Assembly: GCA_016195385.1 (NCBI GenBank)
Contig: JACPZS010000250.1
Coordinates: 1-64,000 of the forward strand
Length of the DNA stretch: 64,000 nucleotides
Reading direction: 5' to 3'
Source of the DNA: Verrucomicrobiota bacterium
Lineage (GTDB): Bacteria > Verrucomicrobiota > Verrucomicrobiia > Limisphaerales > JACPZS01
Every line of letters begins with the position of its first letter. Positions within the stretch are counted from its first letter, which is position 1. This document shows positions 20,623 to 32,189 of the stretch, one piece after another. The position numbers and the translations under genes were made by a program. Below the pieces are notes generated by a model. The model did no database searches, was not told the DNA's origin, and worked only from the letters and a program-made list of their open reading frames with translations.

Positions 20623-20786
20623 ACTTTGCGAACGCGGCGCTCCCCAAGTCTTGACCAGCCCAGCGATTGTACGCACGATGAGGCAGCGTCCGCACGATAG
20701 TTGGGCGAGCACGGATGCCGGGCGGAGACGGTTTGCGCACCAGCTTACAGAACAGGCCGGAAACGCCGATACTGAATCACAATTTG

Positions 20787-23700
20787 ATGATGAATAATCT
20801 TCCGACTCAGGCGACGGACGGAGACGTTCCCGAACGATTGACGGGACTTTCCCCCGCCAAGCAGGCGCTGCTGCAAATGCGCCTGAAGCAGGCCAAAAAG
20901 TCGGCTGCTTCCACAGCCTGGACGATTCCGCACCAGCCCGGCCGGGTCGGAGCACCGCTTTCTTTTTCCCAGCAGCAGGTCTGGCTGGACTGCCAGCTTC
21001 GGGACGAGAAAAACGTTTACAACGTGCCACGATCGCTTCGCCTGGCGGGGAAACTGGACCGCTCCGCCTTGCAACGGGCGTTGGCCGCGTTGATCGAGCG
21101 GCACGAAATTTTGCGCACCACCTACGCGGCCGCCGGCGGCGTGCCACTCCAAAGCGTCACGACGAACCAATTTGCAAATTTGCCGTTGCATGACTTGCGA
21201 GCATTGCCTGAACTCAAACGCGCGGCGGAGGCGGAAAGCATTCTGAAACATGAACTCGCAAAGCCGTTCGATCTCACGCGCGAACTCATGCTGCGGGCGT
21301 CGTTGATACAACTGGCCGATGAGGAGCATGTGCTTTCGCTGGTGACGCATCACCTGGCGTCCGACGGTTGGTCGCGCGGAGTCCTCTTTCGCGAGCTGTC
21401 CGCGCTTTACAACGATTTCCACACCGGACGCGCGCCTTCGCTGCCGCCCTTGCCTATCCAATTCGCGGATTACGCCGCCTGGCAGCGGAAATTCTTTCAA
21501 GACGAAAACCTGGAGCAGGCGTTGGGCTACTGGCGAAAACAACTCGCCGGCGCGCCGCAGTTGTTGGAATTGCCGACGGATCGCCCGCGCCCGGCACAGC
21601 AAAGTTTTTCGAGCGAACTGGTCACACTTCCCGCGTCGCCGGAGTTGCTGGAGCGATTGCGCGCATTCAGCAAGCAAGAGGGCGCGACGCTTTTTATGAC
21701 TTGTCTCGCCGGCTTGCAGGCCGTTCTGTCGCAGTATGCGCGTTCCGAGGACGTGATTGTGGGCACGCCGGTTTCCGGCCGTGGTCGCGTCGAACTCGAG
21801 CCGTTAATCGGAGACTTCTTCAACATGCTCGCGTTGAGGACCGATCTGTCGGGCGATCCCACTTTTCGCGAGTTCCTCGGCCGCGTGCGCCGCGTCGCCC
21901 TGGACGCTTTTGAGCACGACAATCTCCCGTTTGAAAAGCTCGTTGCGGAGTTGAACGTGCCGCGTTCGGCGAGCTACCCGCCGCTGATGCAGGTGGCGTT
22001 TTTCATGGAAGGCTGGCAAAGCGAGCCGCCGCAATTCGACGGACTGACGGCGCGACCGACCGAGTCGGAAACGGAAGCCATCGTGCTGGATTTGTATCTC
22101 GGCCTGTTGGAAGACCAAGCCGGTCCGCGTTGGGGTGCCAAATTTACCACGGCGTTGTTCGATCCGGGAACCGCCCGGCGGCTGCTGGAAAGCTGGCAAT
22201 TGTTTTTGGAATCGGCCGTCGCCCAGCCCGATTTGCCGATTTCAAATTTTTCTTTGTTGAAAGATTCCGAGCGCCACCAACTGCTGGTCGAATGGAATCA
22301 AACCGCTCAAGATTATCCGCGCACGTTGTGTCTCCATCAGCTTTTTGAAGCGCAAGCCAGACGCCGTCCCGAAGCGTTGGCGGTGACTTTTGAAAACGAG
22401 TCGTTGACCTACGCCCAACTCAACGCGCGCGCGAACCAGTTGGCGCGACGCCTGCGTGCCGCCGGCGTCCGGCCGGAAACACTGGTGGCACTGTACGTCG
22501 AACGCTCGCTCGACATGATGGTCGGCGTGTTTGGCATTTTGAAATCAGGCGGCGCGTATGTGCCACTGGATCCCGCCTACCCGGCCGAGCGATTGCGCTA
22601 CATGCTCGAAGATTCCCAAGCGCCCGTAGTCGTCACCCAGGCGCGGCTGGCCGGCGACTTGACTGGCTTGAACGCAACGATCCTTTGTCTGGACGATACG
22701 GCTGCCGAAATCGTCGGTGGCACGACGGAGGATTTGGAAAACGTCACGACGCCGGAAAATCTAGCGTATGTGATTTACACGTCCGGTTCGACGGGCAAAC
22801 CCAAAGGCGTGCAGACGCCGCATCGGGCCGTCGTCAACTTCCTGCATTCGATGCGAGAGGCGCCGGGTTTCACGGAAAACGACATATTGCCAGCGCTGGC
22901 GTCGTTGTCCTTCGACATGTCCGTCATCGAAATTTTTCTGCCACCGACCACCGGCGGAAGAATGATCATCAGCAGTCGCGAAACCGCGGCGGACGGAGCG
23001 AAGTTGATCCAGTTAATCGAACAAAACGGTGTGACCGTGTTCCAGGCCACGCCTGCCACATGGCGGCTGCTGCTCCAAGCCGGCTGGAAAGGAGACAAGC
23101 GTCTGAAATTTATGTGCGGTGCCGAAACCTGGCAGCGTCCGCTCGCGGATGAACTACTCAAGCGCTGCGACAATTTGTGGAACATGTACGGCCCGACGGA
23201 AACCACAGTTTGGTCCACCGTTCAGCAGATTAAGGACGACGGCCGGCCAATTCTGGTGGGCCGGCCGATTGCCAACACGGAAATTTTCATCGTGAACAAA
23301 AACTTGCAGCCGGTGCCGGTGGGCGTGCCGGGCGAGCTATTGATCGGCGGCGCTGGGCTGGCGCGCGGTTATCGGGATCGGCCCGAATTGACGGCGGAAA
23401 AATTTGTCAAACATCCTTTCAGCGCAGATCCGCAGGCACGTCTTTACCGCACCGGCGATCTCGCGCGCTATCTTCCGGATGGCACAATCGAATGTCTGGG
23501 TCGCGTGGATTTTCAGGTTAAAATTCGCGGCTACCGCGTCGAGCTGGGTGAGATCGAGACTGCCATCGGCACGCATCCCGCAGTCGGCGAAGTGGTCGTT
23601 ACTGCGTTCGATGACAGTTCCGGGGAAAAAAGCCTCGTCGCATATCTTGCCGCCAAAGAAGGACAAGAAGTTTCCGCCACGGAACTGAGGCGATTCCTCA

Positions 23701-24122
23701 AAGAAATACTGCCGGACAACATGGTGCCGTCGGTATTTGTGAAACTGGAGAGCCTGCCGCGGTCGCCCAATGGCAAGATCGACCGGCGTGCTTTGCCTGC
23801 GCCGTTGGAAAAAGATCGCCGTGACGGTCTGGAGTATGTGCCGCCCGCAACGCCGGTGGAAAAACAACTGGCCGAGATTTGGTCGCAGACCATTGGCATC
23901 CAGCGAGTGAGTGCGCTTGATAATTTCTTTGAACTCGGCGGCCATTCACTGCTGGCGGTGCAAATCATCGCGCGCATCCGGGACGACCTGCACGTGGATC
24001 TGCCAATGCGGGTTTTATTTGATGCCGCGAACCTTTCCGAGATGGCCGCCGCCATTGAACAAGCGCTTATCTTGAGTCAAAATCCCGACGATATAGAGAA
24101 CATTTTGGCAGAGCTGGGTTAG
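20787..24122 (+). CDS. Nonribosomal peptide synthetase 1, C-A-T
   Basis: About 1111 residues in one module. A condensation domain spans about 50-470 with HHLASDG at 188-194. An adenylation domain spans about 510-990 with YTSGSTGKPKG, MYGPTETT, YRTGDLARYLPDG and NGKIDRRALP. The carrier domain has LGGHSLLAV with Ser1054 for the phosphopantetheine arm. The hand-read specificity code is about D-M-I-Q-M-G-M-V-W-K, closest to the classic glycine code (D-I-L-Q-L-G-L-I-W-K), so a small amino acid is likely. Having a C domain first means an acyl starter or an upstream partner. Start is uncertain: ATG 20787, 20790 or 20715. The next synthetase begins 74 bases after the stop. Confidence 0.95.
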   Translation: MMNNLPTQATDGDVPERLTGLSPAKQALLQMRLKQAKKSAASTAWTIPHQPGRVGAPLSFSQQQVWLDCQLRDEKNVYNVPRSLRLAGKLDRSALQRALAALIERHEILRTTYAAAGGVPLQSVTTNQFANLPLHDLRALPELKRAAEAESILKHELAKPFDLTRELMLRASLIQLADEEHVLSLVTHHLASDGWSRGVLFRELSALYNDFHTGRAPSLPPLPIQFADYAAWQRKFFQDENLEQALGYWRKQLAGAPQLLELPTDRPRPAQQSFSSELVTLPASPELLERLRAFSKQEGATLFMTCLAGLQAVLSQYARSEDVIVGTPVSGRGRVELEPLIGDFFNMLALRTDLSGDPTFREFLGRVRRVALDAFEHDNLPFEKLVAELNVPRSASYPPLMQVAFFMEGWQSEPPQFDGLTARPTESETEAIVLDLYLGLLEDQAGPRWGAKFTTALFDPGTARRLLESWQLFLESAVAQPDLPISNFSLLKDSERHQLLVEWNQTAQDYPRTLCLHQLFEAQARRRPEALAVTFENESLTYAQLNARANQLARRLRAAGVRPETLVALYVERSLDMMVGVFGILKSGGAYVPLDPAYPAERLRYMLEDSQAPVVVTQARLAGDLTGLNATILCLDDTAAEIVGGTTEDLENVTTPENLAYVIYTSGSTGKPKGVQTPHRAVVNFLHSMREAPGFTENDILPALASLSFDMSVIEIFLPPTTGGRMIISSRETAADGAKLIQLIEQNGVTVFQATPATWRLLLQAGWKGDKRLKFMCGAETWQRPLADELLKRCDNLWNMYGPTETTVWSTVQQIKDDGRPILVGRPIANTEIFIVNKNLQPVPVGVPGELLIGGAGLARGYRDRPELTAEKFVKHPFSADPQARLYRTGDLARYLPDGTIECLGRVDFQVKIRGYRVELGEIETAIGTHPAVGEVVVTAFDDSSGEKSLVAYLAAKEGQEVSATELRRFLKEILPDNMVPSVFVKLESLPRSPNGKIDRRALPAPLEKDRRDGLEYVPPATPVEKQLAEIWSQTIGIQRVSALDNFFELGGHSLLAVQIIARIRDDLHVDLPMRVLFDAANLSEMAAAIEQALILSQNPDDIENILAELG

Positions 24123-24196: not shown

Positions 24197-27100
24197 ATGA
24201 GTGATCTTGCCAAGCGGCTGAGAACGTTATCGCCCGAGAAGCGCGCTCTCCTGCAGCAGCGGCTGCTTGAAAAACGCGTGGAGTCGCCGATGAAGGCGAT
24301 TCCGCGCCGCGAAACGGCCGGTCCGTGTCCAGTCTCCTTCGGACAGGAGCTGATGTGGTTGCTCGATAAACTGACACCGGGCATCAGCGCGTATAATGTG
24401 CCGCGAGTGCTGCGCATCAAGGGGGACTTGAATATCGAGGCGCTCCGAAAATCACTCGACACGATGCTCGCGCGTCATGCGGTCTTGCGGACGAACTACG
24501 TCAGCGCCGATGGCATTCCGATGCAGGTTGTGAACGAAGGCGCCACCGTCAACTTTCGCATCGTCGATCTCAGCGCAATGCCGCCGGAGCCACGGGAGGC
24601 GGAGGCCCAGCGAATTAGCATCGAAGAGTCGGACAAATCCTTCGATCTGGAGCGCGAATTGATGATGCGCACCACGCTGCTTCGACTGGCGGCCGACGAG
24701 CATATCTTGATTCTGGTCACCCACCACATTGCTTCTGATGGGGAGTCCCGCGGAATTTTCTTCCGGGAATTAGCCATCCTCTACGGCGCTTTCAGCGAGG
24801 GAAAAGTTCCCACGCTGCCGGATCCGCCCATTCAATATGCCGACTTTGCGGTCTGGCAGCGGGAGTCGTTCAAAGGTGAGGCTCTCCAGCGACAGTTGCA
24901 GTACTGGCTCAAGCAACTTTCCGGCGCGCCGCCGGTGCTGGAGCTTCCCAGCGACCGGCCCCGACCGGCGGTGCAAACGTATTCAGGCGCCCGCATGGGC
25001 GCGATGTATCCCAAGAGTGTGGCGCTGGCGTTGCGCGGCTTGAGCCAGCAGGAAGGTGCCACGCAGTTCATGCTGCTGCTGACGGCGTTCAACGTGTTGC
25101 TGCACCGCTACACCGGCCAGGACGACATCGTGGTAGGCACACCGGTTGCCGGCCGGAGTTGGACCGAAGTGGAAAACTTGATCGGCTACTTTTCCAATTC
25201 GCTCGTGCTGCGAACAAAGTTCGCGGGTAATCCAACTTTTCGCCAATTGCTCAAGCAAGTCCGCGAAATGACGCTCGGGGCATTTTCAAATCAAGAATTG
25301 CCGTTTGAAAAGCTCGTCGAAGAGTTGCAACCGGAGCGTGATTTGAGCCGCAGCCCGATCTACCAGATCATGTTCAGTGTCGGACAGGCCCGGGGCGAGG
25401 AAACGTCGCTGCGCGGTTTGCAACTGACTCCGCTGAATCCCGATCGCGGCACCGCCAAATTTGATCTGTCCTTTGGCTTTCGGGAGTTGCCGGAAGGTTT
25501 GTCCGCCGGTTGTGAGTACGCCACCGATTTGTTTGACGCGGCGACGTTCAAGCGCTTTTTCGCCCACTTGGGTGTACTCTTGGAGGCGATTGCCGCCAAT
25601 CCCGATCTTCCGGTGGATGAACTGCCACTCTTGACGGAAACCGAACGGCACCAGTTGCTCGCCGAATGGAATGACACCCACGCGGCTTACCCACGCCAAA
25701 TATGCGTGCATGAACTTGTCGAAAAACAAGCGGCGCGCGTGCCGGAAAACGTCGCTTTGGTGTTTGAAGGCCGATCCCTGACGTACCGGGAATTGAATGG
25801 GCGCGCCAACCAACTCGCCCGCTTGCTCCAGGCACGCGGAGTCAGGCCCGACGTGCAGGTCGCCATCTTGGTCGAGCGTTCCTTGGAGATGATCATCGCA
25901 GTTTTAGGAATTCTGAAAGCTGGTGCGGCGTTTGCTCCACTCGATCCGGCCATGCCCAAAGACCGGTTGTCTCTCATTCTTGCCGAAGCGAAAGCGCCGG
26001 TGGTGTTGACGCTTCAAGCGTTGACTGACCGCCTGCCGGAAACTTCCGCGGAAGTGTTTTGTCTGGATCACGACGGCGGCGTCCTCGCGGCGCAAAGCGA
26101 CCAAAATCCAGGGCTTTCTCAAGTGCCGGATTCGCTCGCGTACGTCATCTACACGTCGGGTTCCACCGGCGTGCCCAAGGGCGTCATGGTCAGTCACGCC
26201 AACCTGGTGAACGCCTACTTCGCGTGGGAGCAGGCGTATCAACTCCCGGAGGTCGCCACCGCGCATCTCCAGATGGCGAATTACGCATTTGACGTTTTCA
26301 GCGGAGATTTCGTGCGCACGCTGTGCTCGGGGGCGAAACTCGTGCTGTGTCCGTTGGAGACCTTGCTCAATGCGCAGGCGCTGTACGAGTTGATGCGCCG
26401 CGAAAAAGTGGACTGCGCCGAGTTCGTGCCGGCCGTGCTGCGGAACCTGATTCAATACCTCACCGAAACGAAGCAGTCGCTGGATTTCATGCGGCTGCTC
26501 ATCGCCGGTTCGGATGTCTGGTATGTGGACGAGTATAAAAACATCCAACGCTTCGGCGGGCCGAAAACGCGGTTGATCAATTCCTACGGCCTGGCGGAGG
26601 CGACGATCGACAGCACTTACTTTGAGGGTGACGTGGCACAGCTTCCCGGCGCAGGCTTGGTGCCCATCGGACGGCCCTTCCCCAACAGCCAGATTTACAT
26701 TCTCGACGAACGCCGACAATTGGTGCCCGTCGGAGTTACCGGCGAATTATGCATCAGCGGCCCGGGGTTGGCGCGCGGTTATTTGAATCGCCCTGATCTG
26801 ACCGCTGAGAAATTTATCCCGCACCCGTTTAGCGTTGACCCGGGCGCGCGGCTGTATCGCACCGGCGATGTCGCCCGGTATCGTCCCGATGGCACGATCG
26901 AATTCCTCGGCCGCAGCGACCATCAAGTTAAAATCCGCGGCTTCCGCATCGAGTTGGGCGAAATCGAGGCCGTGCTAAACCAGCATCCTCAAGTGCGGCA
27001 AGTCGTGGTGATCGTTCGGGAGGACACGCCGGGCGACAAACGGCTGACGGCCTATCTGGTTACGGGCCAACCGGCGCCGGCGCTCGCCGACCTGCGCGCG

Positions 27101-30100
27101 CACGCGAAGCAGCATCTTCCTGACTACATGGTGCCGGCGGCGTTTGTGTTCCTGGACAAGCTGCCGCTCACCAACAACGGCAAGCTCGATCGCAAGGCCC
27201 TCCCCGCGCCGGATGCTTCGCACAGCGGCGGCGATTTTCTGGCGCCGCGCAGCGCGTTGGAGCTGGAGTTAAAAAACATCTGGGAAGAAATCCTGGGCGT
27301 GAAGCCAATCGGGATCGCTGACAATTTTTTTGAAATCGGCGGCCATTCGCTGCTGGCGGTGAAGCTCTTCATCAAGGTGGAGCAAGTGACGGGGAAAAAA
27401 ATGCCGCTGGCCACGTTGTTCCAGGCGCCGACCATCGAACAATTCGCGGAAATCCTGCACCGCGAAAACTGGACACCCACGTGGAATGCCCTGGTCGCCA
27501 TCCAGCCCTCCGGCAGCAAGACGCCGCTGTTCCTGGTTCATGGTGTGGGCGGAAACATTTTGAATTACCAGGCGCTGGCGAAACGCCTGGCGCCGGATCA
27601 GCCGGTTTACGCCTTGCAGTCCGTGGGCATGGACGGCAAGCAGTCCCCGCTCAAGAGCGTGGAAGAGATGGCGACGGAGTACATCAAGGAAATACGCGGG
27701 CTCCAACCACAGGGCCCGTACTACCTGGGCGGCATGTCTTTTGGCGGGATGGTGATTTGGGAGATGGCGCAACAGCTCGCCGCGCAAGGGGAGCAGATTG
27801 GATTGCTGGCGATGCTGGATGTTGCGCCATGGGGGATCAGGGAGCGCCTCAGCCATGCGGAATTGTTTCGACTCAGAGCGGTCTTTTTCTTCGATCGAGT
27901 GCGCTACAATCTGATCGCTTTTCTTTCAGTGCCCTGGAGGGAAAAAATCATCTTCCTCCAGAAGAAAAAGAAAACCATGAAGCGCCGCCTCAAGAGCCGG
28001 CAGTGGCAGAGGGAATATGTCCAAATGCTTCGCGACGGACACAATTTGCCGCCGGGAATTCAAAATGTGAAAGAGGCGAATTTTCTGGCGGCCGAAAATT
28101 ACGAACCCCAGCCTTTCGACGTGAAGGTCACGGTTTTCCGCGGCATCGACAAAATGATCAAGCTGGGCATCGATCCCCGGATTGCCTGGCGGCATCTGGC
28201 CCGGGGCGGGGTGGAGTTGCATGAAGTTCCGGGTGATCATTTGACGCTCCTGGAGGAGCCGAATGTCCAGGTTCTCGTCAAAAAACTTCGCACCTGCCTG
28301 GCGGCGCCGGTGATCGGGCCAACGTGCGTTCACCAATTTTTCGAGGAACAAGCCAGGCGTACGCCCGATGCCACTGCAGTCATCAATGGCGAAACGACGC
28401 TGAGTTATCACGAGTTGAATGAGCGCGCCGACCAACTGGCCGCGCATCTGCGCGCACTCGGCATCGGTCCCGACACCCGCGTCGGGCTTTGTGCCGAGCG
28501 CTCAATCGAGATGATCGTCGCCGTGCTCGGCATCTTGAAAGCTGGCGGCGCTTACGTGCCGATGGATTTCGCGTATCCCAAAGATCGGCTTCGTTTCATG
28601 CTTGAAGACAGCCGCGCGCCGGTGCTGCTGACGCAGCGGAAACTGGTGCTCGAACTGCCGGCCACTTCGGCAAAAGTGGTATTTCTGGACGAGCCGCTGC
28701 CCACGCTTCCGCCGGCTGCCCCGGCCACGAACGCGCAGCCCACTTCCGCCAGTTTGGCCTACGTGATTTACACTTCCGGCTCGACCGGGCAGCCCAAAGG
28801 CGTGGCGATGCCGCATCGATCCCTCGTCAACTTGATCGAGTGGCAGCGCAAGGAATCACAACTTCCGCCCTGCGCGAAGACGCTCCAATTTGCCTCGCTC
28901 AGTTTCGACGTCTCCTTCCAGGAAATGTTTTCCACGTGGGCCGCCGCCGGCACGCTGGTTTTGATCACCGAAGAAATGCGCCACCATCCCGGCGTGCTGC
29001 TCGGCTTCATGCAAAAGGAGGAAGTGGCCCGGCTGTTCCTGCCTTTCGTGGCGTTGCAGCACATCGCGCAGGCGGTGGAGGACACCGGCATCGTGCCGGC
29101 TACCTTGCGCGAAGTCGTCACCGCTGGCGAGCAATTGCAAATCTCGCCCGCCATCCAGAATCTTTTCCAAAGAATCCCCGAAGCGACGCTCTACAACCAC
29201 TACGGGCCGTCGGAAACACACGTGGTCACTTCGTATCGATTGGAAGGCCCGCCGCATCAATGGATGAGCTTGCCGCCCATCGGCCGCCCGATTCCACGGG
29301 TCAAAATCATCATCCTCGATCCCGATCTCAAGCCGGTCAAAGATGGCGAGCCAGGTGAGTTGCATGTGGGAGGCGTGGCGTTGGCACAGGGTTATCTCGA
29401 TCGCCCGGAGTTGACTCGTGAGGCTTTCATTCAGGACCCGCACAGTTCCGATCCGTCCGCGCGCTGGTACAAAACGGGGGATCTCGCGCGCTGGCTGCCC
29501 GATGGCAATCTTGAATTTCTTGGCCGCAAGGACAACCAAGTGAAGCTCCGTGGCTTCCGCATCGAACTGGGAGAAATCGAGACTGTGCTGGGGCAGCATC
29601 CCAAGGTGCGCGCCGCCGCCGTATCGATTCATGAGCCGGTACCGGGCGACAAACGCCTGGTGGCCTACGTCGTGGGACAGCCAAGCGACAAACCGGGAGT
29701 GAACGAGTTGCGCGCCTTTCTTGGCGAGCGGCTGGCGGACTACATGATCCCGACAGCGTTTGTGCCACTCGAAGCCCTTCCGCTCACGCCTAGCGGCAAG
29801 GTCGATCGTCGATCTTTACCGGCACCGGATCAAACCCGGCCAGCCTTGGAGAAGGAATTTGTCGCGCCGCGCGACAAGCTCGAGCAGGACTTGAAAGCCA
29901 TTTGGGAACAAGTGCTGGGCGTCAAACCGGTGGGTATTCGCGACAACTTTTTTGAACTCGGCGGTCATTCCCTGCTGGCGGCGCGCCTGTTCACGCTCAT
30001 GGAAAAAGCGACGAACCGGAAATTGCCGCTGGCGATTCTCTTCCAGGCGCCGACGATCGAAACGTGCGCCGAATTGCTGCGCCGCGAAAACTGGTTACCG

Positions 30101-30940
30101 CGATCGAGCGCGCTCGTGCCGTTGCAGGCGCATGGATCCAGGCCGCCCCTTTTTCTCGTGCATGGCGTGGGCGGCAACGTGTTGAATTTTCGCCAGCTCG
30201 CGAAATACCTGGGCGAGGGCCAGCCATTCTATGGCTTGCAATCACTGGGTTTGGACGGACAGCAGGCGCCGCTCACGGAAATTGAGGAAATGGCTCAGGC
30301 GTATCTGCGCGAATTGCGCGTGGTGCAGCCCCACGGACCGTATCGGCTGGGCGGGATGTCCTTCGGCGGCATGGTCGCCTGGGAGATGGCGCGCAAGTTC
30401 GTGAGCGAAGGGGAAAAAGTCGAGTTGCTCGCGCTGCTGGATGTAGATCCGTGGGGGGCGGAAGAACGGCTGGGCAAGTTTGAGTTGATCCGACTGAGTG
30501 TTCTCGCACAGATCAGCAGTGTGACGAATAATCTGCGCCATTTCGCTGGACTGCCGTTCGGGCAAAAGCTGGATTATTTGCGCGCCAAGAAGAAGACCTT
30601 CGTCCGGCGGGTGCGCAGCCGTTCCTGGCAGCGCCATTACATGAAGGAATTGCGCAGCGGCCGCGCGCTGCCGCCTTCCTTGAACAACGTGAAGGAAGCC
30701 AACTTCTTCGCCGAAAAAAATTACCGGCCGCAGCCCTACAGCGGACACATCACGGTGTTTGTCGCCACTGACCGATTTGTTGGCACGACGTTGGACACGC
30801 GCGTCGGGTGGCAGGGCCTCGCCCTGGGCGGCGTGACGATGCGTGAAGTGCCGGGCGATCACTTGAGCATCGTGGAAGAACCCCACGTTCAAGTGCTGGC
30901 GGCCAAACTCAAGCAGTGCCTCGATTACCCGCCGGGCTGA
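24197..30940 (+). CDS. Nonribosomal peptide synthetase 2, C-A-T-TE-A-T-TE
   Basis: A 2247-residue protein. Order: C about 45-470 (HHIASDG 176-182); A1 500-985 (YTSGSTGVPKG, NSYGLAEATID, NNGKLDRKALP); T1 with Ser1051 in GGHS; TE1 about 1100-1365 with GMSFGG (Ser1181), Asp1208 and His1348; A2 about 1375-1860 (YTSGSTGQPKG, YGPSETHV); T2 with Ser1925; TE2 with GMSFGG (Ser2055), Asp2082 and His2222. Only about 25 residues separate TE1 from A2, so no C domain feeds the last module. Hand-read codes are D-V-G-E-L-A-S-I-D-K (ornithine-like) and D-V-Q-F-V-A-H-V-V-K (proline-like). Both TEs have alike lids rich in Lys/Arg. All catalytic residues look intact. Confidence 0.96.
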   Translation: MSDLAKRLRTLSPEKRALLQQRLLEKRVESPMKAIPRRETAGPCPVSFGQELMWLLDKLTPGISAYNVPRVLRIKGDLNIEALRKSLDTMLARHAVLRTNYVSADGIPMQVVNEGATVNFRIVDLSAMPPEPREAEAQRISIEESDKSFDLERELMMRTTLLRLAADEHILILVTHHIASDGESRGIFFRELAILYGAFSEGKVPTLPDPPIQYADFAVWQRESFKGEALQRQLQYWLKQLSGAPPVLELPSDRPRPAVQTYSGARMGAMYPKSVALALRGLSQQEGATQFMLLLTAFNVLLHRYTGQDDIVVGTPVAGRSWTEVENLIGYFSNSLVLRTKFAGNPTFRQLLKQVREMTLGAFSNQELPFEKLVEELQPERDLSRSPIYQIMFSVGQARGEETSLRGLQLTPLNPDRGTAKFDLSFGFRELPEGLSAGCEYATDLFDAATFKRFFAHLGVLLEAIAANPDLPVDELPLLTETERHQLLAEWNDTHAAYPRQICVHELVEKQAARVPENVALVFEGRSLTYRELNGRANQLARLLQARGVRPDVQVAILVERSLEMIIAVLGILKAGAAFAPLDPAMPKDRLSLILAEAKAPVVLTLQALTDRLPETSAEVFCLDHDGGVLAAQSDQNPGLSQVPDSLAYVIYTSGSTGVPKGVMVSHANLVNAYFAWEQAYQLPEVATAHLQMANYAFDVFSGDFVRTLCSGAKLVLCPLETLLNAQALYELMRREKVDCAEFVPAVLRNLIQYLTETKQSLDFMRLLIAGSDVWYVDEYKNIQRFGGPKTRLINSYGLAEATIDSTYFEGDVAQLPGAGLVPIGRPFPNSQIYILDERRQLVPVGVTGELCISGPGLARGYLNRPDLTAEKFIPHPFSVDPGARLYRTGDVARYRPDGTIEFLGRSDHQVKIRGFRIELGEIEAVLNQHPQVRQVVVIVREDTPGDKRLTAYLVTGQPAPALADLRAHAKQHLPDYMVPAAFVFLDKLPLTNNGKLDRKALPAPDASHSGGDFLAPRSALELELKNIWEEILGVKPIGIADNFFEIGGHSLLAVKLFIKVEQVTGKKMPLATLFQAPTIEQFAEILHRENWTPTWNALVAIQPSGSKTPLFLVHGVGGNILNYQALAKRLAPDQPVYALQSVGMDGKQSPLKSVEEMATEYIKEIRGLQPQGPYYLGGMSFGGMVIWEMAQQLAAQGEQIGLLAMLDVAPWGIRERLSHAELFRLRAVFFFDRVRYNLIAFLSVPWREKIIFLQKKKKTMKRRLKSRQWQREYVQMLRDGHNLPPGIQNVKEANFLAAENYEPQPFDVKVTVFRGIDKMIKLGIDPRIAWRHLARGGVELHEVPGDHLTLLEEPNVQVLVKKLRTCLAAPVIGPTCVHQFFEEQARRTPDATAVINGETTLSYHELNERADQLAAHLRALGIGPDTRVGLCAERSIEMIVAVLGILKAGGAYVPMDFAYPKDRLRFMLEDSRAPVLLTQRKLVLELPATSAKVVFLDEPLPTLPPAAPATNAQPTSASLAYVIYTSGSTGQPKGVAMPHRSLVNLIEWQRKESQLPPCAKTLQFASLSFDVSFQEMFSTWAAAGTLVLITEEMRHHPGVLLGFMQKEEVARLFLPFVALQHIAQAVEDTGIVPATLREVVTAGEQLQISPAIQNLFQRIPEATLYNHYGPSETHVVTSYRLEGPPHQWMSLPPIGRPIPRVKIIILDPDLKPVKDGEPGELHVGGVALAQGYLDRPELTREAFIQDPHSSDPSARWYKTGDLARWLPDGNLEFLGRKDNQVKLRGFRIELGEIETVLGQHPKVRAAAVSIHEPVPGDKRLVAYVVGQPSDKPGVNELRAFLGERLADYMIPTAFVPLEALPLTPSGKVDRRSLPAPDQTRPALEKEFVAPRDKLEQDLKAIWEQVLGVKPVGIRDNFFELGGHSLLAARLFTLMEKATNRKLPLAILFQAPTIETCAELLRRENWLPRSSALVPLQAHGSRPPLFLVHGVGGNVLNFRQLAKYLGEGQPFYGLQSLGLDGQQAPLTEIEEMAQAYLRELRVVQPHGPYRLGGMSFGGMVAWEMARKFVSEGEKVELLALLDVDPWGAEERLGKFELIRLSVLAQISSVTNNLRHFAGLPFGQKLDYLRAKKKTFVRRVRSRSWQRHYMKELRSGRALPPSLNNVKEANFFAEKNYRPQPYSGHITVFVATDRFVGTTLDTRVGWQGLALGGVTMREVPGDHLSIVEEPHVQVLAAKLKQCLDYPPG

Positions 30941-31019: not shown

Positions 31020-32189
31020 ATGCCGGCCATGAATTCGACGTTGACCAGTTTTTCATTCCCCACACCCACTCTTTTTGGCGTCCGCGCGTTGCAGGAATTG
31101 CAAGGTCGCCTCGTGAAACTCGGCGTGCGCCGCCCGCTCGTCGTGACCGATGGCGGCCTGGCCCGCACGGAGGCGTTCAGCGCGCTCACGATGACGCTCG
31201 GCGAAGGCGGACGAGATCGCGATTGGTTCCTCTACGCGGGCGTGCATCCCAATCCCATCGAGAGCGACGTCGTCGAACCGGCGGCGTTGTTCCGCGAGAA
31301 AAACTGCGACGGCGTGATCGCGATCGGCGGCGGCAGTCCGCTCGACGCGGGCAAAGCGGCGCGTCTGCTGGTGAAACGCCCCGGCTTCAACCTCACTAAA
31401 TTCTATGACGAAAGCGACTGGTCCGGCCTCGCGCCATTTGTGGCCATCCCCACGACGGCCGGCACGGGCAGCGAAGTCGGCCGCAGTTCCGTCATCACCC
31501 TCGATGCCACGAAACGCAAGGCCGTACTCTTCCATCCCGAGTTGCTCGCGAAACTGGTGATTCTCGATCCCGAACTCACGCGTGGCCTCCCGCCCAAGCT
31601 TACCGCCGCGACGGGCGCGGACGCGCTCACGCATTGCATCGAGAGCTTCACGTGCCCGCAATTTCATCCCATGTGCGACGGCATCGCGCTTGAAGGTGTC
31701 CGGCTGATCATGGAAGCGCTCCCGCGTGCCGTTCGCGACGGCAACGACCTCGACGCGCGCGGCAAAATGCTCGTGGCCGCCGCGATGGGCGCGGTCGCGT
31801 TTCAAAAGGATCTTGGCGTCGTGCATTCGCTGGCGCATCCGCTCTCCACGATTTGCGGGATGCACCACGGCCTGGCCAACGCGCTTTGTCTCGTGGCGGG
31901 TATGAAGTTTTGCGCCACGCGCAAACCGGGACTCTATCGCCGCGTCGGCATCGCGTGCGGCCTCGAAGTAATGAAATGCTCCGATGCTGAAGCCGATGCG
32001 CGCACGATAGCGTGCGTCGCGGAATTTCTGGCCGCTCTCGGTCTGAACGCGCGGCTGCGCGAGCACGGCGTCAAAGCTGAACAACTCGCGGCTCTCGTCG
32101 TGCAAGCGGTGGACGATCCTTGTCACAAGACCAATGCCGTGCTGGTGACGGCAGCGGATTTTCGCCGGCTCTACGAAGAAGTTCTCTGA
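31020..32189 (+). CDS. Iron-containing alcohol dehydrogenase
   Basis: The 389-residue protein has the group III dehydrogenase layout: FSFPTPTLFGVRAL start, IAIGGGSPLDAGKAARL for NAD(P), IPTTAGTGSEVGRSSVI, then metal ligands in GADALTHCIESF, VHSLAHPLSTI and HHGLANAL. It oxidises or reduces an unknown alcohol/aldehyde pair. It begins 79 bases after synthetase 2 and runs the same way, so it might be cotranscribed, but nothing ties it to the peptide. ATG 31020 or 31029 are both possible. Confidence 0.92.
   Translation: MPAMNSTLTSFSFPTPTLFGVRALQELQGRLVKLGVRRPLVVTDGGLARTEAFSALTMTLGEGGRDRDWFLYAGVHPNPIESDVVEPAALFREKNCDGVIAIGGGSPLDAGKAARLLVKRPGFNLTKFYDESDWSGLAPFVAIPTTAGTGSEVGRSSVITLDATKRKAVLFHPELLAKLVILDPELTRGLPPKLTAATGADALTHCIESFTCPQFHPMCDGIALEGVRLIMEALPRAVRDGNDLDARGKMLVAAAMGAVAFQKDLGVVHSLAHPLSTICGMHHGLANALCLVAGMKFCATRKPGLYRRVGIACGLEVMKCSDAEADARTIACVAEFLAALGLNARLREHGVKAEQLAALVVQAVDDPCHKTNAVLVTAADFRRLYEEVL

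Follow-up and report, generated by a model that had tools for sequence, protein, structure and literature searches.

The window (the whole stretch of 64,000 nucleotides that was analysed) encodes an NRPS of 2247 amino acids in which a C-A-T-TE line continues, in one reading frame, into an A-T-TE module lacking a condensation (C) domain. In what we tentatively consider the best reading, the internal thioesterase (TE1) would hand the peptidyl chain to prolyl-S-T2 and the terminal thioesterase (TE2) would release it. The domain order, the intact active sites, the mosaic origin of the second half and the recurrence of the layout in related genomes are read directly from the DNA.

Domain organisation of the NRPS

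The NRPS locus consists of two genes set among housekeeping genes within the window. HrpB helicase is encoded upstream, and AspRS and gyrase/topoisomerase IV subunit A downstream. The features of the locus are:

20715-24122, forward strand: upstream NRPS gene, C-A-T, 1135 aa; A code DMIQMGMVWK, grouping with A domains of code DILQLGxxWK
24197-30940, forward strand: NRPS, C-A-T-TE-A-T-TE, 2247 aa, ATG start, without internal stop (ORF and Pfam)
24329-25657, forward strand: C domain of elongation type, HHIASDG motif
25706-27211, forward strand: A1, code DVGEIGSIDK (predicted ornithine), grouping with Bacillales A domains of the same code
27245-27451, forward strand: T1, GGHSLL (Pfam)
27491-28303, forward strand: TE1, internal, with Ser1181, Asp1208 and His1348; sister of TE2
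28304-28327, forward strand: TE1-A2 linker, 8 residues between domain envelopes, without a C domain
28328-29827, forward strand: A2, code DVQFVAHVVK (predicted proline); 73% identical to the A domain of a free-standing A-T-TE on another contig of the same genome (G000:C200)
29867-30073, forward strand: T2, GGHSLL; sequence affinity shifts here from the C200 type to T1
30113-30922, forward strand: TE2, terminal, with Ser2055 and equivalent Asp and His
31020-32189, forward strand: iron-containing alcohol dehydrogenase, 79 bases downstream of the NRPS gene

Pfam detected one Condensation, two AMP-binding (+C), two PP-binding and two Thioesterase domains on the 2247-aa ORF, all far above their cut-offs. 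The core motifs were all intact: HHIASDG in the C domain, the A-domain motifs, GGHSLL in both T domains and Ser-Asp-His in both TEs. The C-A-T-TE-A-T-TE layout and the coordinates proposed in an earlier sequence-only reading were thus borne out. With C, A and T domains intact in one frame the protein is a modular type I NRPS; it departs from the rule for such enzymes that each extension module has its own C domain and that a TE is only terminal, in that its last module is A-T-TE and TE1 is internal.

The alcohol dehydrogenase gene possibly lies in the same operon as the NRPS gene. Its best match was to 4-hydroxybutyrate dehydrogenase models, below threshold.

The join between TE1 and A2

The HMM envelopes of TE1 and A2 meet at residues 1372 and 1381 (ORF numbering), leaving a gap of 8 residues with the sequence LRTCLAAPVIGPTCVHQFFEEQ, and the full C-terminus of TE1 runs directly into the start of A2. 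An A domain is usually preceded by LLxxWNxT, a piece of the C-A linker; this piece was absent before A2. A cryptic C domain at the join was ruled out because the 8 residues between the envelopes leave no room for a domain of about 450 residues, and the Pfam domain search found none there, in agreement with what had been claimed.

NRPS genes are repetitive and the host genome is a draft in 263 contigs, both of which speak for an assembly chimera, or a missed frameshift, at about 28,300. We nevertheless regard this explanation as highly improbable. Shared exact matches were never longer than 13 bases between TE1 and TE2, 14 bases between the two A-T-TE halves of the NRPS and 17 bases between the join region and the NRPS contigs compared. 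The join DNA had no match above 74% in the rest of the genome at any length above 60 bases. GC3 was uniform across all seven domains (0.72-0.76), the frame was open and the window held no ambiguous bases. Joins of this kind are present in other genomes too and thus did not arise by accident in a single assembly. An artefact at the join was rejected on the repeat, GC3 and join-copy comparisons. The sequence-only reading had named a frameshift or assembly join near 28,300, a cryptic C domain or an inactive TE1 as evidence that would speak against it; we saw no sign of the first, found no such C domain, and found the TE1 triad intact.

Predicted substrates and proposed chain transfer

Ten-residue codes were read off by aligning each A domain to that of GrsA; the GrsA control code came out as DAWTIAAICK, as expected. 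We take DVGEIGSIDK of A1 to be the textbook ornithine code and DVQFVAHVVK of A2 to be a proline code, and DMIQMGMVWK of the upstream gene is presumably close to glycine codes. By these codes, A1 is predicted to use ornithine and A2 proline, and the upstream C-A-T gene probably uses a glycine-like substrate. Aryl-pyruvate A-T-TE synthetases (atromentin type) have A domains that lack the amino-acid-binding Asp235; A2 differs from these, with a code that begins with D and reads proline.

We infer every catalytic step of the transfer mechanism. The upstream C-A-T and the C-A-T of the present protein would assemble X-Gly-Orn on T1, X being a putative starter. TE1 would accept this chain as an ester on Ser1181 (acyl-O-Ser). 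The secondary amine of prolyl-S-T2, adjacent in the same chain, would then attack the ester and leave X-Gly-Orn-Pro on T2, which TE2 would hydrolyse or cyclise. TE1 would thus stand in place of a C domain by the reverse-transfer chemistry of iterative TEs. It speaks for this mechanism that it gives each domain a role in colinear order and that the carrier and TE active sites are all intact.

Alternatively, A2-T2 may be a displaced loading module: prolyl-S-T2 would be the donor to the first C domain of the upstream gene, giving Pro-Gly-Orn, and TE1 would release the product. The cluster indeed has no loading module, and the C domain that opens its first gene looks like those of elongation modules (Txo1, Txo2, TycC); lipo-starter C domains such as CDA and 7c1h scored far lower. 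In ObiF, a C-terminal A domain charges the starter carrier (PMC6668435). We consider this arrangement unlikely here, however, as TE2, lying right behind T2, would compete for the starter, and other genes could supply starter units in trans. Moreover, the A-T that follows the TE in related proteins either has its own C domain next (A-T-C) or, in G267, belongs to a line already opened by a C domain from a distinct N-terminal clade.

Origin of the second half

The same genome encodes a free-standing prolyl A-T-TE of 935 aa (G000:C200) with the code DVQFIAHVVK. In the A tree its A domain was the sister of A2 (support 1.0), at the 73% identity given above. T2 and TE2 shared 67% and 54% identity with T1 and TE1, as compared with 49% and 38% with their C200 counterparts, and TE1 and TE2 were sisters in the TE tree (0.97). 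Because similarity switches from C200 to T1-TE1 at the start of T2, the second half is a mosaic, with a prolyl A domain placed before a copy of the protein's own T1-TE1. As the nearest relative of A2 belongs to the free-standing prolyl enzyme of C200, the sequence comparisons give good support to an origin of the gene by fusion, in which a normal release module, C-A(Orn)-T-TE, was joined to a prolyl A-T-TE unit. In the C200 locus, two long frames of 471 and 616 aa without Pfam match precede the A-T-TE gene (L046, 7285-10089).

Free-standing A-T-TE genes were also found in G005, G055, G037 and G130, that of G005 being a very similar prolyl enzyme. Such single-module enzymes, including the one on C200 with the same predicted substrate as A2, have the A-T-TE order without a C domain, and the second half of the window protein likewise has complete motifs and no C domain. 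It differs from them in being fused, in one ORF rather than as a separate polypeptide, behind a complete C-A-T-TE, and in having a T-TE of another lineage.

These enzymes bear on the main rival to chain transfer, namely that the chain holds two separately acting enzymes. TE1 would then release a Gly-Orn peptide, A2-T2-TE2 would make its own product or prolylate a second acceptor, for example the product of TE1, a reaction of which stand-alone A-T-TE enzymes are capable, and the fusion would merely keep the units together. We regard this reading as plausible but rather doubtful. The very similar prolyl A-T-TE enzymes of C200 and G005 indicate that the second half could be autonomous, and free-standing A-T-TE genes are present in the further genomes named above. 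In relatives, the parts flanking the join are each a complete line with its own TE, and a TE-ended line fused to a loading-type A-T would look alike without any transfer. Against two units, T2-TE2 was copied from T1-TE1, has a similar lid and did not come from the autonomous enzyme; this in turn argues for transfer. In G267 the final A(Pro)-T lacks its own exit, and the single exporter gene in each relative cluster fits one product, though weakly.

TE1-mediated joining, two separate products and a fusion of two enzymes had all been listed in the sequence-only reading. The list was right; the fusion is well supported as the origin of the gene, and the protein may act either by chain transfer or as two separate units.

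Active sites and lids of the thioesterases

Both TEs kept Ser, Asp and His, as had been stated, with the triad acid at position I. PDB sequence matches included the TEs of EntF and Vlm2. Like iterative TEs, TE1 and TE2 are Ser-Asp-His, type I-fold domains lying behind a T domain. An inactive TE1 was unsupported, the triad being intact. This triad is also the canonical releasing one, and TE1 groups with terminal TEs, which speaks against a transfer role. An AlphaFold model of TE1 (two sequences) had a mean pLDDT of 58.8.

The substrate-binding lids of TE1 and TE2 were 48% identical at a core identity of 57%. Among 264 pairs of similar core identity, which are related and non-independent, their lid likeness ranked 11 (mean 31%). 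That T2-TE2 copies T1-TE1 and that the lids are unusually alike suggests that the two TEs act on chains of one type, which is consistent with chain transfer.

A decayed or neutral fusion, in which the second half or one of the TEs has fallen out of use, is quite improbable. TE1 would normally end synthesis, and the protein comes from a single draft genome without a close relative by which conservation could be judged. However, no active-site motif is damaged, neither the base composition nor the frame is unusual over 6.7 kb, and the two TEs keep their triads and much of the lid although they differ by 46%.

The internal TEs of related megasynthases have a Cys nucleophile, Asn at the first acid position and a conserved His, and none had Asp at the second acid position. 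Cys-His-Asn replaces Ser-His-Asp in this way at loci L110-L115, L051, L052, L109 and L121. The terminal TEs of the same proteins were Cys-Asp-His. Cys-His-Asn was rejected as a mark of internal TEs, for it occurs in ordinary last-domain TEs of stand-alone C-A-T-TEs in several genomes, several of them with an exporter behind. Membership of window TE1 in the recurrent Cys-TE clade was likewise rejected, by the tree and by its Ser-Asp-His triad. Because TE1 and TE2 fall outside that clade, the window TE has an origin separate from that of the Cys-TEs, and TEs in the internal position have at least two origins.

Comparison with known systems

The sequence-only reading had supposed that C-independent elongation by a TE would be new. 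The reaction itself is already known: the iterative TEs of GrsB and EntF form a bond by reverse transfer, the peptide bond in gramicidin S synthesis arising when a PCP-tethered monomer attacks peptide-O-TE (GrsB), and cyclo-oligomerisation in enterobactin synthesis being carried out by the EntF TE (PMC11735501). This chemistry, in which the TEs of GrsB, EntF and Vlm (valinomycin) join an acyl-O-Ser ester to a carrier-bound monomer without a C domain (PMC11735501), is what is proposed for TE1, and the GrsB and EntF precedent (PMC11735501) speaks for the transfer mechanism. Those TEs are terminal, join copies of the same unit and also cyclise, whereas TE1 is internal, has a different aminoacyl carrier behind it and would act once in cis. 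A TE ligation used once, in cis, as a fixed elongation step would be what is new.

ObiF (obafluorin), a C-A-PCP-TE-MLP-A protein, likewise carries, within a single chain, an A domain after an internal TE (PMC6668435). It differs in its Cys TE with Asp at the second position, in the MbtH-like domain (MLP) between TE and A, and in a last A domain without T or TE; TE1 and TE2 use Ser, no MLP is present and A2 is followed by T2-TE2. LgnA TEII (legonindolizidine) moves an aminoacyl chain between T domains (PMC8748450), but is a stand-alone type II TE that acts in trans and forms no peptide bond. Tandem TE-TE ends are found in the synthetases of lysobactin, teixobactin and Pseudomonas lipopeptides (PMC8949500). 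These share with the window protein two TEs per synthetase; theirs are adjacent at the end, whereas the TEs in the window are split by A2-T2 and do not both follow the last T domain. A literature search, which covered few subscription journals, returned no paper on an internal TE in NRPSs or on this domain order.

Recurrence in related genomes

The architecture is not a one-off. A TE+A profile run on 320 genomes of the same order spanned the join in ten (G130-G134, G043, G008, G260, G267, where it did so twice, and G078). These belong to families f23, f9, f44 and f59; the window belongs to f1 and was itself scored in two pieces with this profile, its linker being short. At the relatives' joins, A-T always lay directly behind the TE. 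The predicted amino acid after the TE was proline in 7 of the 12 joins. G122 (f26) had the same order, with two ambiguous bases that break the frame inside the end of the TE. It was rejected as a version divided between a TE gene and an A-T gene; the tail of the TE and the linker continue into A in a second frame.

In a draw of 388 genomes from the phylum, just one further match spanned the join, in G663, and this was rejected as a fused TE-A, being two neighbouring PKS-NRPS genes. No TE-A join was found by profile search in two other phyla (200 and 299 genomes), samples that are broad and small and say little. The junction search of genome contigs gave mostly A-domain matches and no TE-A join, and in tblastn on plasmids a joined match was also satisfied by the A-T-TE order.

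The common forms in relatives were C-A-T-TE-A(Pro)-T-C-FkbH-T-TE and C-A-T-TE-A-T-C-A(Ala)-T-C-FkbH-T-TE, with FkbH confirmed by NCBIfam in one member. These megasynthases (G130-G134, G043, G008, G260 and G078; C-A-T-TE-A-T-C-(A-T-C-)FkbH-T-TE) share with the window protein an internal TE followed directly by a C-less A-T, often prolyl, and thus the T-TE-A-T junction. They differ in their Cys-His-Asn internal TE, of a clade that does not include TE1, in a linker of 33-85 residues and in the further C-FkbH-T-TE end. The gene plan of the window is found again in G130, with C-A(Gly)-T followed by C-A-T-TE-A(Pro)-T-.... The window C domain lies near the relatives' C domains and A2 falls in the same prolyl clade; it is therefore possible, on these groupings, that the plan is shared by ancestry and that the TE and A1 were swapped later.

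In G267 the order is KS-AT-T-C-A-T-TE-A-T-TE-A(Pro)-T, with two joins in a row. The chain ends with this A(Pro)-T, which carries neither a C domain nor a TE, and no NRPS gene comes after it; in cis, therefore, only an upstream TE could act on it. This exit-less A(Pro)-T speaks for chain transfer by TE1, as does the recurrence of a TE followed by a C-less A-T in ten of the 320 genomes, with the gene plan of G130 among them. For the order as a whole, we hold it possible, with some reserve, that internal TEs replace C domains as elongation catalysts, in a position reached at least twice (as Cys-His-Asn and as Ser-Asp-His).

Should TE1 hand the chain on, a domain for release would also serve, a single time, for elongation, and the rule that an embedded TE ends the line would be broken. 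Engineers would then have an alternative of about 270 residues to a C domain of about 450 residues, and genome-mining tools would mispredict the products of such lines as two peptides. If, instead, the halves work independently, these fusions with their repeated occurrence still form a testable family that makes, or joins, two products per chain.

Other features of the related clusters

The C-FkbH-T-TE ends at L110, L111, L114, L051, L052 and L121 place a C domain before the glyceryl-loading FkbH, which suggests ester bonds to glycerate. At L181 (G019:C436), an internal TE precedes a C domain: about 40 residues after C-A-T-TE, where the contig ends, a C domain begins. No ABC transporter of the type seen with the Cys-TE clusters was found adjoining the window NRPS locus. 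That transporter, conserved and about 560-630 aa long, follows the Cys-TE clusters at L054, L130, L131, L114 and L112, and at L115 (6461-18427, G267:C81) the gene next to the NRPS also encodes an ABC transporter.
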